DNA of 64,000 nucleotides from Planctomycetia bacterium (GTDB lineage Bacteria > Planctomycetota > UBA1135 > GCA-002686595). How positions within the stretch are numbered: position 1 is the stretch's first letter; every line of letters begins with the position of its first letter. Positions 25,313-32,748 of the stretch are shown here, piece by piece. The notes under the pieces were generated by a model. That model searched no databases. It was given only the letters and a program-made list of their open reading frames with translations, and was not told the origin of the DNA. The DNA lies in the NCBI GenBank assembly GCA_005799545.1, contig SYGM01000167.1:18661-82660 (forward strand), given 5' to 3'. The translations under genes and the position numbers were made by a program.

Positions 25313-25338
25313 GGCGATGAATGATAGCATTCGAGCGC

Positions 25339-28056
25339 ATGCAACGGATGCTCCTCCTGCTGCTATGGGTCCTGCTGGCCCTTTCGCTCTACGCTCAGAC
25401 CCCGGCGTTCAAAGCGGCTCGCGACCTTGAGGGCTTCGAAGGCGTGGAGCTCTCCGAGCATCGCGATGTCTACGACCTCACGAGCTTTCGAGAACTCGAC
25501 GGAAAGCCGCTCACGGCCGAGGAGCTTGAAGCGCAGCGCAAGCGCTGGAAAGCGGAGTGGGAGTGCGGCAACGCCCATGTCGCCAAGCTCGAATCCGACC
25601 CCGCGGAGTTGTGGTCTTGGAATCTGCGTCGCCGCCTGCTTCGACACCGCTATTTCTCGAAGATCTCCTGGACGCTGGAACGGCCCGCGCCCGGCTTCGT
25701 GCTGGTCGTGCAGCGCCCGGCCAAGGACGATCCGAAGTACATCGAGCGCCTCGCGGCCTTGTACATTCCCTCGGCAACCAAGACCTTCGCGCAATTCGAG
25801 AAGGAGATCCTGACTCCCACGGGCCTGCAGCGCCGCAGCAGTCATGAACTCACCGCCATCGCGGTGCTCGCCAGCCAGGGCGATCTCGACAACTTCCGCA
25901 AGTTCGTCAACGATCCCACGGGGTACACATCGGCGACCGCCTACGACTATGAGTTGCAGTTGACCGTCGCCTGCCAGGACCCATTCACGGAAGTCAGCCC
26001 GGGCGTGCAGCAGGCCGCAATGAACTACCAGCTGATCAAGGCGCTGCAGCATGCCTATCTCGCGGTTCCCGGCAATCGACCCGCCTCGATCGGGCTCTAC
26101 GAAGGTCTCGCGATGTACTACGGCAGCCTGCGGGATGACAAGGCCACGCCGAAAGCAGAGAGCGCCGGTTGGCTGCTCGATGCGGTCAATGCTGCGGAGA
26201 CTCGCGAGTTGCTCTTGCTGCCGCTCGATCAGTGGCTGCAGATCTCCTCCTGGCAGGATTATGCAGGTCAGGTGGCCAAGCGTGCGGAAGCAGCGCAGCA
26301 GCCCGTGCCGGAAGGCAATCAGATCGGACGCGCCTACGTGGCCCAGTGCGAAAGGTGGCCCCATTTTCTGATGCAGGCTGCCGATGGCCGCTATCGTCTG
26401 CCCTTCCTGACCTTCGCCGGCTCGGCCTTGCGCGGCAAGGGCAAGGCTGCCGATCTGCAGTCGGCCTTTCCGGGCATGGATCTGCGCGCCGTGTCACGCG
26501 AGTTTCTGCTCGCCATGTGCACGGAGGCCGCGAAGCGCAACCCGAAGACCAAGTTCGATCCCAAGGCCATCGAGTCCATGTTTTCGGCAGCCGTGAACAT
26601 CGATGCCGGGCCCATCGTCGTGGGTCCGCAGGTCGAGGAGCAGGTGGCGGAATTCGCTCCGCAGGCCTTGGCTCCCGATGCCGGGGATGTACAGGCCGTG
26701 CATGCGCTGGCTCTGTCGCGCGCCAGAGAGGGTGACTTCGCCGGTGCGCTCGACGAATTGCGCGGTGCGCTTGCCGGCGCGGTTTCGCCAGCCAAGGAGC
26801 GCATCGAACGTGAGTTGATGAGGCTAGAGCAGCTCAATGAGCTGCGCAACGGCTGGCTGCGCGCGCAGATCGCGGCCAAGGGGCGCATCAAGGTCGCCGT
26901 GCGGGGCAGGGAATTCTCCGCGCCCGTCGTCGCCCTCGACAATGGTCTTGTCCGACTCGGTGAAAACGGCGGGGGCGTGGGTAGCGTCGCGCTCCGCGAA
27001 GTCGTGTGGCAGGAAGCCGTCAAGGCTGCTACGAAAACCGAGCATCAAGGCAGTGCGCGGCCGTGGACGCGCGCCTTCGGATTGCTGCTGGCGGGGGATG
27101 AACGCTGGGAAAAGCAGCTCAAGAGCCGCGATGCGGAAGTCGAGGCACTCGCAAAGGACGCGCCGAGCTACGCGGCACTGAAAGCAACCAGCGAGGTGGC
27201 ACGCAGCCTGTATCTGCTCAGCCGCAATCCGATTCCGCGCACGTCGGCGGAGATCGACCAACGGCTCGGCGAAGTGAAGCGCCTGCTGAACATCTACGGC
27301 ACGGATCCCTTGCTGAAACGTCGCATCGACCTGCTGCGTCAGTACGCCACGGCCTGCATCGTGGAACGGATGCGCAGCCTTCCGATGGGTGCCGGCCTGC
27401 ACGGAAAGCTCACCGATCTCGGCGACGGACGCGTGCGCATCGAGTACTCCTTCGACAGCGACCCTGAGGTCGCCGACTGGATCCAGGTGCCGCGTGAATC
27501 CATGCCGCTTCAGCCCGCAGCCAAGGTCCCGGCGGGATCCGTCAGGGCATCCAAGGGGGTGCTGACGGGCACGGGCGGCATGTACCTGCGCTTCGCGCGC
27601 ACGTTTCAGGGAGATGTTTCCGTGCGGTATTCCTTCCATTTCAAGGAGCCCGATGGTGCCTACGGAACACCGCGGATGCTGTGGATCCTGGGGGAGACCC
27701 CGGACGGCAGCTACGTCGGCTGCGATCCGATGGGGGATATCTACGTGCGTTACAGCGATCCGGAAGACTCGCGCAGCCTGCGCCCTAAGCAGCGCGCGCA
27801 GCTGGATTGGAATCAGGACGCGGAGATTGGCATCGAACTCAAGTCCGGTGTTGTCACCACAAGCTTCGAAGACAAGCCGGTCGCGACGCTCGAGAATGCT
27901 CCCGTGAAGGGGGGCAGCATGGCCTTGTTCACGGAGATGGACCTGACCTTCTCGATCAGCAGGATCGTCCTCGAGGGACGCCTGGATGCCCGGCAGGATG
28001 CCAGCCAGCGCAATGCTCTGATCGCCGATGAGCTCAGGAAGCTGGGATTCCCCTGA
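25339..28056 (+). CDS. Large secreted hypothetical protein (905 aa); N-terminal region resembling a degenerate gluzincin-like peptidase, C-terminal LamG/concanavalin-like region
   Basis: Signal peptide MQRMLLLLLWVLLALSLYAQ; PASIGLYEGLAMYYGS resembles DUF1570-like segments but no HExxH seen; C-terminal YSFHFKEPDG... Confidence 0.55.
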   Translation: MQRMLLLLLWVLLALSLYAQTPAFKAARDLEGFEGVELSEHRDVYDLTSFRELDGKPLTAEELEAQRKRWKAEWECGNAHVAKLESDPAELWSWNLRRRLLRHRYFSKISWTLERPAPGFVLVVQRPAKDDPKYIERLAALYIPSATKTFAQFEKEILTPTGLQRRSSHELTAIAVLASQGDLDNFRKFVNDPTGYTSATAYDYELQLTVACQDPFTEVSPGVQQAAMNYQLIKALQHAYLAVPGNRPASIGLYEGLAMYYGSLRDDKATPKAESAGWLLDAVNAAETRELLLLPLDQWLQISSWQDYAGQVAKRAEAAQQPVPEGNQIGRAYVAQCERWPHFLMQAADGRYRLPFLTFAGSALRGKGKAADLQSAFPGMDLRAVSREFLLAMCTEAAKRNPKTKFDPKAIESMFSAAVNIDAGPIVVGPQVEEQVAEFAPQALAPDAGDVQAVHALALSRAREGDFAGALDELRGALAGAVSPAKERIERELMRLEQLNELRNGWLRAQIAAKGRIKVAVRGREFSAPVVALDNGLVRLGENGGGVGSVALREVVWQEAVKAATKTEHQGSARPWTRAFGLLLAGDERWEKQLKSRDAEVEALAKDAPSYAALKATSEVARSLYLLSRNPIPRTSAEIDQRLGEVKRLLNIYGTDPLLKRRIDLLRQYATACIVERMRSLPMGAGLHGKLTDLGDGRVRIEYSFDSDPEVADWIQVPRESMPLQPAAKVPAGSVRASKGVLTGTGGMYLRFARTFQGDVSVRYSFHFKEPDGAYGTPRMLWILGETPDGSYVGCDPMGDIYVRYSDPEDSRSLRPKQRAQLDWNQDAEIGIELKSGVVTTSFEDKPVATLENAPVKGGSMALFTEMDLTFSISRIVLEGRLDARQDASQRNALIADELRKLGFP

Positions 28057-28084
28057 ACGCCGCATGCGTGCTTCAATGGCATGC

Positions 28085-29293
28085 ATGAGCGTTCACCTCT
28101 TCACCACTCTCGATACCAAGGGTCAGGAGGCGCAGTTCCTGCGCAACGCGCTGCAGTCTCTCGGCGTGGCGGTGACGCTCGTCGACACCGGGTGCCTCGG
28201 TGAGCCTGCCGTGACCGCCGATGTTTCGCGTGAATCGGTGTTCGAGGCCGCCGGCACCACGTTGGCCGCGATGCGCGCGCGCAATGACCGCGGCGAAGCC
28301 GTCAGCGCCGCCGCACGCGGCGCAGAGGCGATCGCGTGCGCGGCGCATGCGCAGGGTCGGCTGCACGGCGTGCTGGGCCTGGGCGGCGGGGCCGGAACCA
28401 CGATCGGCACGGCGGCGATGCGTTGCCTGCCGATCGGTGTGCCCAAGATGATGGTCAGCACGCTGGCCTCCGGGCAGGTCAACCACTTCGTCGGCAGCAG
28501 TGACATCCTGATGCTCAACAGCATCGTCGATATCAGCGGGATCAACCGGATCTCGCGCGTCGTGCTGACGCGTGCGGCTCAGGCCATGGCCGGAATGGCG
28601 CTCGGTGCGACACCCGCCGTTTCAGCTAACGATAAACCGCTGGTCGCCGCCAGCATGTTCGGTGTCACGACACCGTGCGTGGAGGCGGCGCGCGCCGTGC
28701 TGGAGGCGGCCGGTTGCGAGGTGCTGGTGTTCCACGCCACCGGGAGCGGCGGTCGCACGCTGGAGTCGCTTGCGGCCAGCGGGATGCTGGCCGGTGTGCT
28801 CGACATCACCACCACCGAGCTCGCCGATGAGCTCGTGGGCGGATTTCTCAGCGCCGGGCCGGAGCGGCTCACGGCGGCGGGCAAGCGCGGCATTCCGCAG
28901 GTTGTCAGCGCGGGCGCGCTCGATATGGTCAACTTCCACGGCATCGACACCGTGCCCGAAGCCTTCCGCGACCGCACGCTCTACCGACACAATGCAAATG
29001 TCACGCTGATGCGAACCACTGCGGCGGAATGCGCCGAACTGGGCCGCATCATCGGTCGCAAGCTTGCGGCGGCACAGGGACCGACCCGCTTCCTGTTCCC
29101 GACGAAGGGTGTTTCCGGCATCGACCGCGCAGGTCAGCCCTTCGATGATCCGGCCGCGCGCGCGGCCCTGCTGGCGGGTCTGAAGGAAACGCATGGCACC
29201 GTTCCGCTCGAGGTGCGTGAGGAGCACATCAATGACGTCGGTTTTGCACAAGCGGCGGCTCGCGAGCTGCTGCGGATGATGGGTCGCGGCTGA
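28085..29293 (+). CDS. Tm-1-like (UPF0261) ATP-binding domain protein
   Basis: VHLFTTLDTKGQEAQFLRNAL..LGLGGGAGTTIGTAAMRCLPIGVPKMMVSTLASG..VGSSDILMLNSIVDISGINRISR. Confidence 0.9.
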   Translation: MSVHLFTTLDTKGQEAQFLRNALQSLGVAVTLVDTGCLGEPAVTADVSRESVFEAAGTTLAAMRARNDRGEAVSAAARGAEAIACAAHAQGRLHGVLGLGGGAGTTIGTAAMRCLPIGVPKMMVSTLASGQVNHFVGSSDILMLNSIVDISGINRISRVVLTRAAQAMAGMALGATPAVSANDKPLVAASMFGVTTPCVEAARAVLEAAGCEVLVFHATGSGGRTLESLAASGMLAGVLDITTTELADELVGGFLSAGPERLTAAGKRGIPQVVSAGALDMVNFHGIDTVPEAFRDRTLYRHNANVTLMRTTAAECAELGRIIGRKLAAAQGPTRFLFPTKGVSGIDRAGQPFDDPAARAALLAGLKETHGTVPLEVREEHINDVGFAQAAARELLRMMGRG

Positions 29294-29315: not shown

Positions 29316-31775
29316 TCAGCCGCGCGGGACGATGCGCGTGCCGAGCAGACGGTCCACGAGGGTGGCATGGGGCCAGGCGATGCTGCTGAGCAGGAAGGTC
29401 GCGTAGATTCCCAGCGCGGTCAGCGCCAGTACCATCGTGCCGCCATCCTCGAGCCCGGCCCAGATGCCCAGCAGGGTGATCGCAGGCAACACGAACAGCA
29501 GGGTTCGCAGTCCGCAGAGCAGCGCTCCGGCGCGCATTCCGCGCCGTGTGCGCAGCAGCATGCCGAACATGCGGAACAGCAGACCGCCGCGCGTCAGCAT
29601 GGAAAGCGGGACGAACAGCAGAACGATTGACAACGCGCCTCCGAGAGCCGTGACGATGCGGTCACTGTTGGGATCCAGCAGCGGCTCTGCCTTGTCTGCC
29701 GTCATCACCATTGCCAGGACAAGAGCCAAGGTGATGAATCCGATGCCCATGGAGGTCAGCAAGGCCTGGAATCCACGCTGCCGGCGCGTCACAGAAAGCG
29801 GCCCCTGAGTCATCGGGGCGAGCGCTGCTGCCGCTGCGGCAACGTTGTCATAGCCGTGCTTCAAGCCAAGGATGCGCTGCAGCACTTCATCCCCTGAACC
29901 GGGCATATCGCGGGGCAGCACATGCTGTTCGCCGATCAACAGGCGTGCAGCATGTCCGAGCAGTTGCACCGCACTCATGCGCCGTGCCTCGCCTTCCAGA
30001 ATGGCAAACGACAGCAGCTTCAGGCGTCCGTGACGATCGACCCAGAGCTGACCAAGCTGGTACTCCCCGGCCTCCTCACCGGAAAGTGCATCCGCGAGTT
30101 CCAGCAACAGCCGCAGGAGGACCTCCCAGGCGAGCTCCCCCTGAGCCGCGCGCCAGTTCACCAACGTGTCGCCGCCGGGTGCTTCGAGCACCTGACACTG
30201 CAGGCCCTCGGCCTCGAAGGCGCCCAGCCAGTGCAGGCGCGAGTGGTTGGCCTGAGTGTCGAACCGAATCGGCTGCTGCGCGCCCAGAATCCAGACCTTG
30301 CGTGTCAGCAGCGCATCCTCCGCGCTGTAGAGCTCGCCATGGCTTGTGGTCGCGATGTGGGCTTCGAGCCTGTGCAGCCCAAGGATGCTCGTTTCGGCGT
30401 TCACAGGCCTCGACGTGCGCTCCACATCGTTCAGCTGCTTGGTGAAGCGGGGGAAAGGCAGGGTTGTCTGCGTCGTGCGCGTTCGGCTGGCCCACTCATG
30501 CAGGTACATCCATCCGTTGTTGCGTCGACCTGGGATGATCAGCAGCATCTGCAGGGGGATCACTACGATGCCCGTGATCTGGTCATCGTAATTCCAGAAC
30601 AGATAGGGCAGGGCGCTGGGAACCATGAAGATGGCGGTGCGCAGCATCGTTCGATTCCAGACCGGGACGCCGTTCTCGGTATCGTGAACGCGCAGGCCAA
30701 GAACCCACTTGCCGAGACTCATCCCCAGCCACCCCTCCAGAATGGAGAAGTACAAGAACATCGTCGGGAAGCCCGCAATCAGGCTGTAAAGCTGCAATTC
30801 CTCCTTCGTCGTCCCTGTACTGGCGACAAGGACGGCAACCAGCGCTCCGATGACGAGCGTGTTGAAAAGCGCGAGCACGGCCGTGTCGACAAGGTAGGCG
30901 GCGAGCCTGCGTGCCGGGTGTGCCGGCAGGGCGAACTGAGCGAAGGGATGCAGTGCTTCGTGCAGTTCCTGCAGGGTCTGATGCCGCTTGGCGGGGTCCT
31001 TCTCCATCGCGCGGGCGATGATCTTCGCCAAGGGGCCCGGAACCTCCTTGCGTAGGCTGCGGATGTCATCCGCTGGTTCGGAAAGGATGCGCGCGAAAAC
31101 TTCCTGCACATTGCTGCCCTGCCAGCCCGGTCGACCGGTCAGAAGCGCATAGAGGGTCGCAGCTGCGGAGTACAGATCGCTGCGTTCATCGACTGCGCGG
31201 CCGCGGATCTGCTCCGGTGAGGCATACAGTGGCGAGCCGATGAATTGCCCCGGATCGGTGAGATGCACCTGGGTTTCGATCGAGCGCGAAAGCCCGAAGT
31301 CACCGACCTTGATCCTGCCGTCGGCGCCAAGGAAGCAGTTCGACGGCTTCACATCGCGGTGCAGCACATTGGCACGGTGCGCAGCCTCGAGGCCCTCCAG
31401 AAGTTCGATCGTCCAGCGTACCGCCTGTGCGACGGGGATCCTCTCGCCGCCCTGGATGACGTGCTCGAGCGTCTGACCTTCAACCAGCTCCATGGCGATG
31501 GCCGGTGATTGCTCCACCGAATGCGCCCCATAGACGAAGACACAGCGCGGATCCGAGATCGACGCCGCCAGAATTGCCTCGCGGTGGAAGCGGTCGAAAG
31601 CCGTCTCCTTGTCCTGCATCGAATAGGGCAGGACCTTGAGAGCGACGACTCTGTTGGTCGAGAGTTCGCGGGCGCGATAGACGATGCCCATGCCGCCGCG
31701 ACCAAGCTCCTCGATCAGCTCGAATCCGTCCGCGACACGCGGAAGCTCTCTGGGAACTATGCGGCTGGATTCCAC
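29316..31775 (-). CDS. Serine/threonine protein kinase fused to RDD domain, a pseudokinase-like segment and a second RDD-like membrane region
   Basis: ELGRGGMGIVYRARE..VALKV..HRDVKPSN..KVGDFGLSR; HPARRLAAYLVDTAVLALF..LGMSLGKWVLGLRVHD; C-terminal TLVDRLLGTRIVPRG. Confidence 0.9.
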   Translation of the reverse strand: MESSRIVPRELPRVADGFELIEELGRGGMGIVYRARELSTNRVVALKVLPYSMQDKETAFDRFHREAILAASISDPRCVFVYGAHSVEQSPAIAMELVEGQTLEHVIQGGERIPVAQAVRWTIELLEGLEAAHRANVLHRDVKPSNCFLGADGRIKVGDFGLSRSIETQVHLTDPGQFIGSPLYASPEQIRGRAVDERSDLYSAAATLYALLTGRPGWQGSNVQEVFARILSEPADDIRSLRKEVPGPLAKIIARAMEKDPAKRHQTLQELHEALHPFAQFALPAHPARRLAAYLVDTAVLALFNTLVIGALVAVLVASTGTTKEELQLYSLIAGFPTMFLYFSILEGWLGMSLGKWVLGLRVHDTENGVPVWNRTMLRTAIFMVPSALPYLFWNYDDQITGIVVIPLQMLLIIPGRRNNGWMYLHEWASRTRTTQTTLPFPRFTKQLNDVERTSRPVNAETSILGLHRLEAHIATTSHGELYSAEDALLTRKVWILGAQQPIRFDTQANHSRLHWLGAFEAEGLQCQVLEAPGGDTLVNWRAAQGELAWEVLLRLLLELADALSGEEAGEYQLGQLWVDRHGRLKLLSFAILEGEARRMSAVQLLGHAARLLIGEQHVLPRDMPGSGDEVLQRILGLKHGYDNVAAAAAALAPMTQGPLSVTRRQRGFQALLTSMGIGFITLALVLAMVMTADKAEPLLDPNSDRIVTALGGALSIVLLFVPLSMLTRGGLLFRMFGMLLRTRRGMRAGALLCGLRTLLFVLPAITLLGIWAGLEDGGTMVLALTALGIYATFLLSSIAWPHATLVDRLLGTRIVPRG

Positions 31776-31842: not shown

Positions 31843-32748
31843 ATGAACAACCAGAATGCCTCGCGTGAGATTCCGTTCAAGGCTCTGTCCGGCTATCTGA
31901 TGCTGCTGCCTTGGTTTCTCTCGCTGGGCCTCGCGGTGCTGCTGTTCGCCGCCGCCTCCGGTCACGGCGTCAGCAAGGATGAACAACTCGCCGCAGTGTT
32001 GACGGGTTTCGTGCTGCTGGTGTGCTTCGTGCTGCTCTCGATCGGTTTCTTCATCGTCGAGCCCAACATGGGGCGCGCGCTGATCCTGTTCGGCCGCTAT
32101 CGCGGAACGGTGCGCAGCTCCGGCTTCTGGTGGACCAACCCCTTCACCGTCAAACGCCGGATCTCGCTGCGCGCGCACAACCTCAACGGCAAGACGCTGA
32201 AGGTCAACGATCTGCTCGGCAACCCGATCGAAATTGCCGCCGTCGTGGTGTGGCAGATCCGCGATACGGCGCAGGCATTGTTCGATGTGGAGCAGTTCGA
32301 GCACTTCGTCGAGGTGCAGGGTGAGGCTGCGGTTCGCTGCGTGGCCGCAAAGCATCCTTACGATGACGGTCAGGCCTCTGAGGTCAGCACGACACTCCGG
32401 GGCAGTGCCGATGCCGTGGCAGAGGAACTGGCGGTGGAGCTGCGCCAGCGTCTCGCCATCGCCGGCATCGAAGTGCAGGAAGCGCGGCTGTCGCACCTTG
32501 CCTATGCTCCGGAGATCGCAGCGGCGATGCTGCAGCGACAGCAGGCGGGAGCGATCATCGCTGCGCGCGCCAAGATCGTCGAAGGCGCGGTGTCGATGGT
32601 TGAAATGGCGCTGGCGGATCTCTCGAAGAAGAACATCGTGCACCTAGACGATGAGCGCAAGGCCGCCCTGGTCGGCAATCTGCTGGTGGTGCTGTGCGGA
32701 CAGCAGGCTCCCTCGCCGGTGGTGAACGCCGGCAGCCCCCACAGCTGA
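31843..32748 (+). CDS. SPFH (band 7/stomatin-like) domain membrane protein
   Basis: [90 protein letters not shown]. Confidence 0.9.

Follow-up and report, generated by a model that had tools for sequence, protein, structure and literature searches.

A kinase-RDD-pseudokinase-RDD protein of the Planctomycetota with a probably tryptophan-plugged adenine pocket in its pseudokinase domain

A single protein of 819 amino acids, encoded in the window (the whole stretch of 64,000 nucleotides that was analysed), is composed of four domains in the order kinase, RDD, pseudokinase and RDD. This architecture and the pseudokinase status of the middle domain are assigned with very high confidence. The gene is the open reading frame at positions 29316-31775 on the minus strand, starts with GTG and has exactly the extent that was first noted. 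Beyond this, it is tentatively proposed that the protein represents a phylum-wide family with an intramolecular pseudokinase, the adenine pocket of which would be plugged by a pair of Trp residues so that the domain might act as a permanently closed, nucleotide-free regulator of the active kinase, as a bacterial, membrane-embedded analogue of the JAK type; such a family would be hitherto undescribed. The features are as follows, with the coordinates being those of the window.

30936..31733, minus strand: Hanks-type Ser/Thr kinase domain, residues 15-280, canonical, with VALK, HRDVKPSN and DFG intact (Pfam Pkinase, E 1e-45)
30468..30917, minus strand: first RDD membrane domain (RDD1), residues 287-436, four predicted membrane helices (Pfam RDD, E 2e-12; helices and strands in the AlphaFold model)
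29796..30386, minus strand: pseudokinase domain, residues 464-660 (profile search of the PDB, AlphaFold, Foldseek)
30291..30293, minus strand: Trp495, by alignment in place of the adenine-contacting Ala of VAxK, which reads VWIL
30042..30044, minus strand: Trp578, by alignment at the beta7 catalytic-spine Leu position (L173 of PKA)
29319..29786, minus strand: second, RDD-like membrane domain (RDD2), residues 664-819, four membrane helices, ending DRLLGTRIVPRG (profile score, order of elements in the AlphaFold model, positive-inside charges)
31843..32748, plus strand: gene for an SPFH/band-7 membrane protein, head-to-head with the kinase gene (Pfam Band_7, E 9e-18)

Domain architecture and fold

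Judged from its residues, the first domain is a normal Hanks-type Ser/Thr kinase. The Gly loop, the VAIK Lys, the alpha-C Glu, HRD, DFG and APE were present in all 22 of the 22 kinases of the family, and a Foldseek comparison of this domain with PknB gave a TM of 0.93 by target. Pfam assigned residues 18-271 of the 819-amino-acid protein to Pkinase and residues 285-413 to RDD, with RDD1 reaching 48.2 bits compared to a gathering cut-off of 24.1. This agrees with the canonical kinase followed by an RDD domain that the preliminary description had claimed, and the motifs quoted there were all located in the protein. NCBIfam matched the kinase part only, and zero Pfam matches were obtained when the last 380 residues, about 440-819, were run alone. 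Among the matches listed for the full-length protein, Foldseek returned only kinases, with the RDD parts remaining without a match. A role in defence was rejected: the PADLOC matches concerned only the generic kinase domain, and the tested neighbours were without a match.

The fold of the middle segment was evaluated with a profile built from 15 homologous middle segments, which included zero ordinary kinases. An hmmsearch with this profile against the PDB found mycobacterial PknA (E 4e-8), in an alignment that set VAVK of PknA against VWil and kept the region from the catalytic loop to DFG in register, and ordinary kinases were the next matches after the family members when the profile was searched in genomes. 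A direct comparison of the kinase and middle-segment profiles scored 58.6, while 40 shuffled controls reached at most 21.3 and the reversed control 12.2. AlphaFold, run on the middle segment with an alignment of 15 rows, returned a model with a pLDDT of 88.2, a pTM of 0.84 and the strand and helix order of a kinase: beta1-beta5, helices D and E, beta7-8 and subsequently the C-lobe helices, without an alpha-C and without an activation segment. With this model, Foldseek found kinases at E 6e-9, and 50 of 50 matches listed were kinase or kinase-homology domains, with the pseudokinase of MviN at rank 10 as the closest known pseudokinase there. The middle domain is thus predicted to have a kinase fold, and the kinase-like order of subdomains that had been read from the sequence before is upheld by the profile, the model and the structural matches.

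The C-terminal part was likewise compared with its counterpart. A profile comparison of RDD1 with RDD2 scored 53, with controls at or below 20, and in the AlphaFold models the elements of both follow in one and the same order: a pair of long helices, then a short helix and a strand, then two more helices, and finally another short helix with a strand. The RDD-like topology claimed for the C terminus therefore stands. The window protein had no Pfam RDD match in RDD2, but 4 of 14 homologous C-terminal halves did (best E 5e-4). Three of the four membrane helices of RDD1 were recovered by hydropathy, and the charges beside the membrane helices, read by the positive-inside rule, place both kinase domains in the cytoplasm. 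In many relatives (L139, L140, L141, L142, L146), an insert of 90-130 residues is located between membrane helices one and two of RDD2; it is absent from the window copy, is predicted to be non-cytoplasmic and could be a sensor loop.

Residue signature and distribution of the pseudokinase

Twenty-three pseudokinases were compared with 22 partner kinases and 68 other kinases. The beta3 Lys, the Asp of HRD and the alpha-C Glu were gone in 23 of the 23 pseudokinases. The Asp of DFG was present in 14 and gone in 9, including the window copy, which reads SFA at this position; the preliminary description, which had HRD and DFG as missing, was right for the window copy with respect to both motifs. 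At the position of the Ala in VAxK, 20 of the 23 pseudokinases possess a Trp and the others Leu, Ile or Phe, compared to Ala in all 90 of the 90 other kinase domains. The catalytic-spine position in beta7 is a Trp in 22 pseudokinases and a Phe in one. Together with this Trp pair, the motifs LxRxVW and LWxD were near-invariant across the 23 domains.

In established kinase structures, the positions corresponding to Trp495 and Trp578 flank the adenine ring of ATP, one on each face. Because both of these adenine-sandwiching positions, as placed by alignment to known kinases, are occupied by Trp, the adenine pocket of the pseudokinase is probably plugged by the two side chains, and there are good grounds to regard the ATP pocket as filled and the domain as one that would not bind ATP. 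Some members may nevertheless bind a metal or another ligand residually, since the Asp of DFG persists in 14 of the 23. A similar solution is described for the MviN pseudokinase, in which the aromatic residues F724 and W789 fill the pocket and ATP is not bound (PMC12599244), and Phe residues introduced at spine-filling positions yield stable dead kinases in the case of PKC and Akt (PMC12721161).

Homologues of the middle segment are present in additional genomes of the family and order of the window, as well as in other families of the phylum. When 81 genomes of the family were searched with the second half, members were identified in 14. Thirteen named genomes contained zero members, just matches of the strength of ordinary kinases. 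Most homologues have the architecture kinase-RDD-pseudokinase-RDD, and all complete members that were seen carry the pseudokinase in fusion with a kinase. One variant (L041) is a kinase-pseudokinase protein without membrane domains and another (L040) is kinase-pseudokinase-RDD2. That such variants keep both kinase domains while dropping one or both RDD domains suggests that the two kinase domains are a functional pair. Loci with these two architectures are L181:8305-9951, a kinase-pseudokinase without membrane helices, and L182:6397-8724, a kinase-pseudokinase-RDD2. The best match reported for a related kinase (L042/L185, G003:C24) contains one in-frame TGA.

Origin of the second half

The architecture would be explained most simply by a tandem duplication of the kinase-RDD unit. 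The two halves fit this in that they form a colinear repeat: the profiles of the whole halves aligned colinearly over 357 columns with a score of 109, with 40 shuffled controls at or below 29 and the reversed control at 11. In the tree, the family kinases and the pseudokinases form one clade each (SH-aLRT 99 and 100), and several subgroups are common to both clades, as would be expected if the two domains had been inherited together.

Alternatively, the second half may not be a duplicate of the first but may descend from another kinase of the PknB type that was joined to an RDD domain, which is possible but somewhat less likely than not. In this case, the ARDxxLxRxV motif of the pseudokinase, which is usual in PknB-type kinases, would be explained, with the active kinase of the family having ARExxTGRxV instead. 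The pseudokinase profile also ranked some other PknB-type kinases, with up to 61 bits, above the partner kinase with 0-21 bits, in a set of kinases that had been partly chosen by the same profile, and RDD2 was no nearer to RDD1 than to stand-alone RDD domains. A quick tree had placed the family kinase and the pseudokinase apart; however, the tree joining both was not rejected by the AU test (p 0.60). No kinase-RDD fusions were noticed outside the family in 61 related genomes, as judged on the length of the open frames only, and the kinase-RDD unit recurs in the same order within one protein; both speak against this alternative origin.

Possible function and relation to known systems

The pseudokinase is probably a nucleotide-free domain that regulates or scaffolds the neighbouring active kinase, and a role as an intramolecular regulator is plausible. 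The protein joins a membrane-embedded Ser/Thr kinase and a dead kinase domain in one chain, each of them followed by an RDD membrane domain of four helices. With the pocket occupied by the two Trp side chains and the catalytic spine completed by them, the domain would be held closed without a nucleotide and may present an unchanging surface to the cytoplasm, for docking or for allosteric contacts. This surface could control the active kinase, be it the one of its own chain or that of a partner in a dimer, or bring partners to it, and the second RDD domain, with its extra-membrane loop of roughly 100 residues in many relatives, could be the sensing or anchoring part. A back-to-back contact of the RAF/PknB type should not be assumed for the two kinase domains because the pseudokinase is without an alpha-C.

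The pseudokinase might instead be mainly a scaffold: the domain itself, or its flanking linkers once phosphorylated by the attached kinase, would recruit a separate effector and leave the kinase unregulated. This is unlikely, although MviN, the closest known pseudokinase among the fold matches listed, recruits FhaA (PMC12599244) and a gene adjacent to the kinase gene may encode a partner. The divergent SPFH/band-7 gene is retained beside the kinase gene in six genomes, which suggests a membrane-platform partner: five other genomes have an orthologue, 64-74% identical to that of the window, in the corresponding divergent place, and beyond it, in the window and in these five, follow genes for an FNR-like oxidoreductase and an HrpB helicase. 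The SPFH/band-7 gene is a possible candidate for a partner on the strength of this conserved neighbourhood. It was, however, missing near the kinase gene in several other genera and in all other families examined, some of the contigs being short, and the constant fusion of the pseudokinase to a kinase speaks also against the scaffold reading. On the other side of the kinase gene, a convergent gene of the UPF0261 family is located in the window (28073-29293, plus strand), the position of which is held in all five other genomes with the SPFH arrangement by a HEAT-repeat gene of about 750 amino acids. Farther away, the open reading frame of 911 amino acids at 25321-28056 on the plus strand had no match in Pfam and NCBIfam at the thresholds used; a homologue of it is located near the kinase locus of one other genome (L141).

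The second kinase had initially been described as decayed, and a decaying duplicate with no function beyond membrane anchoring would agree with the faster evolution of the second half compared to the first kinase, with the loss of the activation segment and alpha-C, and with the variants that are without one or both RDD domains. This is very improbable. Nei-Gojobori dN/dS values of five pairs, some of them near saturation, were 0.19-0.43 for the pseudokinase compared to 0.10-0.20 for the kinase; the pseudokinase is under purifying selection, and the second half is therefore not a relic. The domain is ancient, occurs in several families across the phylum and possesses a conserved signature of its own, so that the term decayed is not supported. 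Likewise very improbable is that the pseudokinase has acquired a different catalytic function, as SelO or SidJ did: kinase-fold enzymes with altered motifs exist and 14 of the 23 pseudokinases contain the Asp of DFG, but SelO and SidJ retain the beta3 Lys and this Asp (PMC12599244), whereas the 23 domains have lost the beta3 Lys, the HRD Asp and the alpha-C Glu, the adenine pocket is apparently filled, and the window copy is without the DFG Asp, too.

A nucleotide-free regulator or scaffold of the neighbouring kinase may be compared with several known systems. MviN (Rv3910, ActPs3 family) is likewise a bacterial Ser/Thr pseudokinase with a deletion in the activation loop and degraded motifs, and bulky aromatic residues fill its ATP pocket and complete the catalytic spine (PMC12599244). 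It differs from the window protein in being a transmembrane protein of peptidoglycan synthesis for which no active kinase is described within the chain, and because its VAIK motif reads VALT, F724 and W789 are not located at the VAxK Ala, unlike Trp495. The ActPs3/MviN pattern of VALT, Lsidhpsr and Y-- (PMC12599244) contrasts with VWIL and SFA in the window copy and with VWxx and mostly LWID-type motifs in the homologous pseudokinases. In the GLW pseudokinase family, GLW replaces HRD and a poly-Leu(/Trp) motif is present at beta3 (PMC12599244); no GLW was found in place of HRD in the family described here, and its Trp residues are at the beta7 spine and at the VAxK Ala. Seven families are treated in a review of bacterial pseudokinases, and the terms RDD, tandem and Planctomycetes are absent from its text. 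A search of the open-access literature found no kinase-RDD-pseudokinase protein and nothing relevant on kinase-RDD proteins.

The sensor parts of kinases of the PknB/PknA type are usually a single helix and an extracellular domain. The first domain of the window protein is a normal member of this group and shares its superfamily with the pseudokinase, but the stand-alone kinases have neither a pseudokinase nor an RDD domain. With respect to the RDD family (PF06271), RDD1 is above the Pfam cut-off and RDD2 is of that type by profile and topology while being undetected by Pfam. An active and a dead kinase in one chain are also found in the eukaryotic tandem kinase-pseudokinases, JAK, GCN2 and those of plants, and in JAK the dead kinase domain is regulatory. 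There was no sign of a common origin with these eukaryotic tandems, from which the protein differs by a membrane domain after each kinase and by a strongly trimmed pseudokinase; for the plants, a tandem kinase-pseudokinase family is described in PMC6170490. If the proposed function is true, bacteria, too, have kinases that are controlled by a dead kinase within one polypeptide, and the Trp pair would put to a test in nature what has up to now been tried mainly by engineering, namely that filling of the catalytic spine can substitute for ATP.
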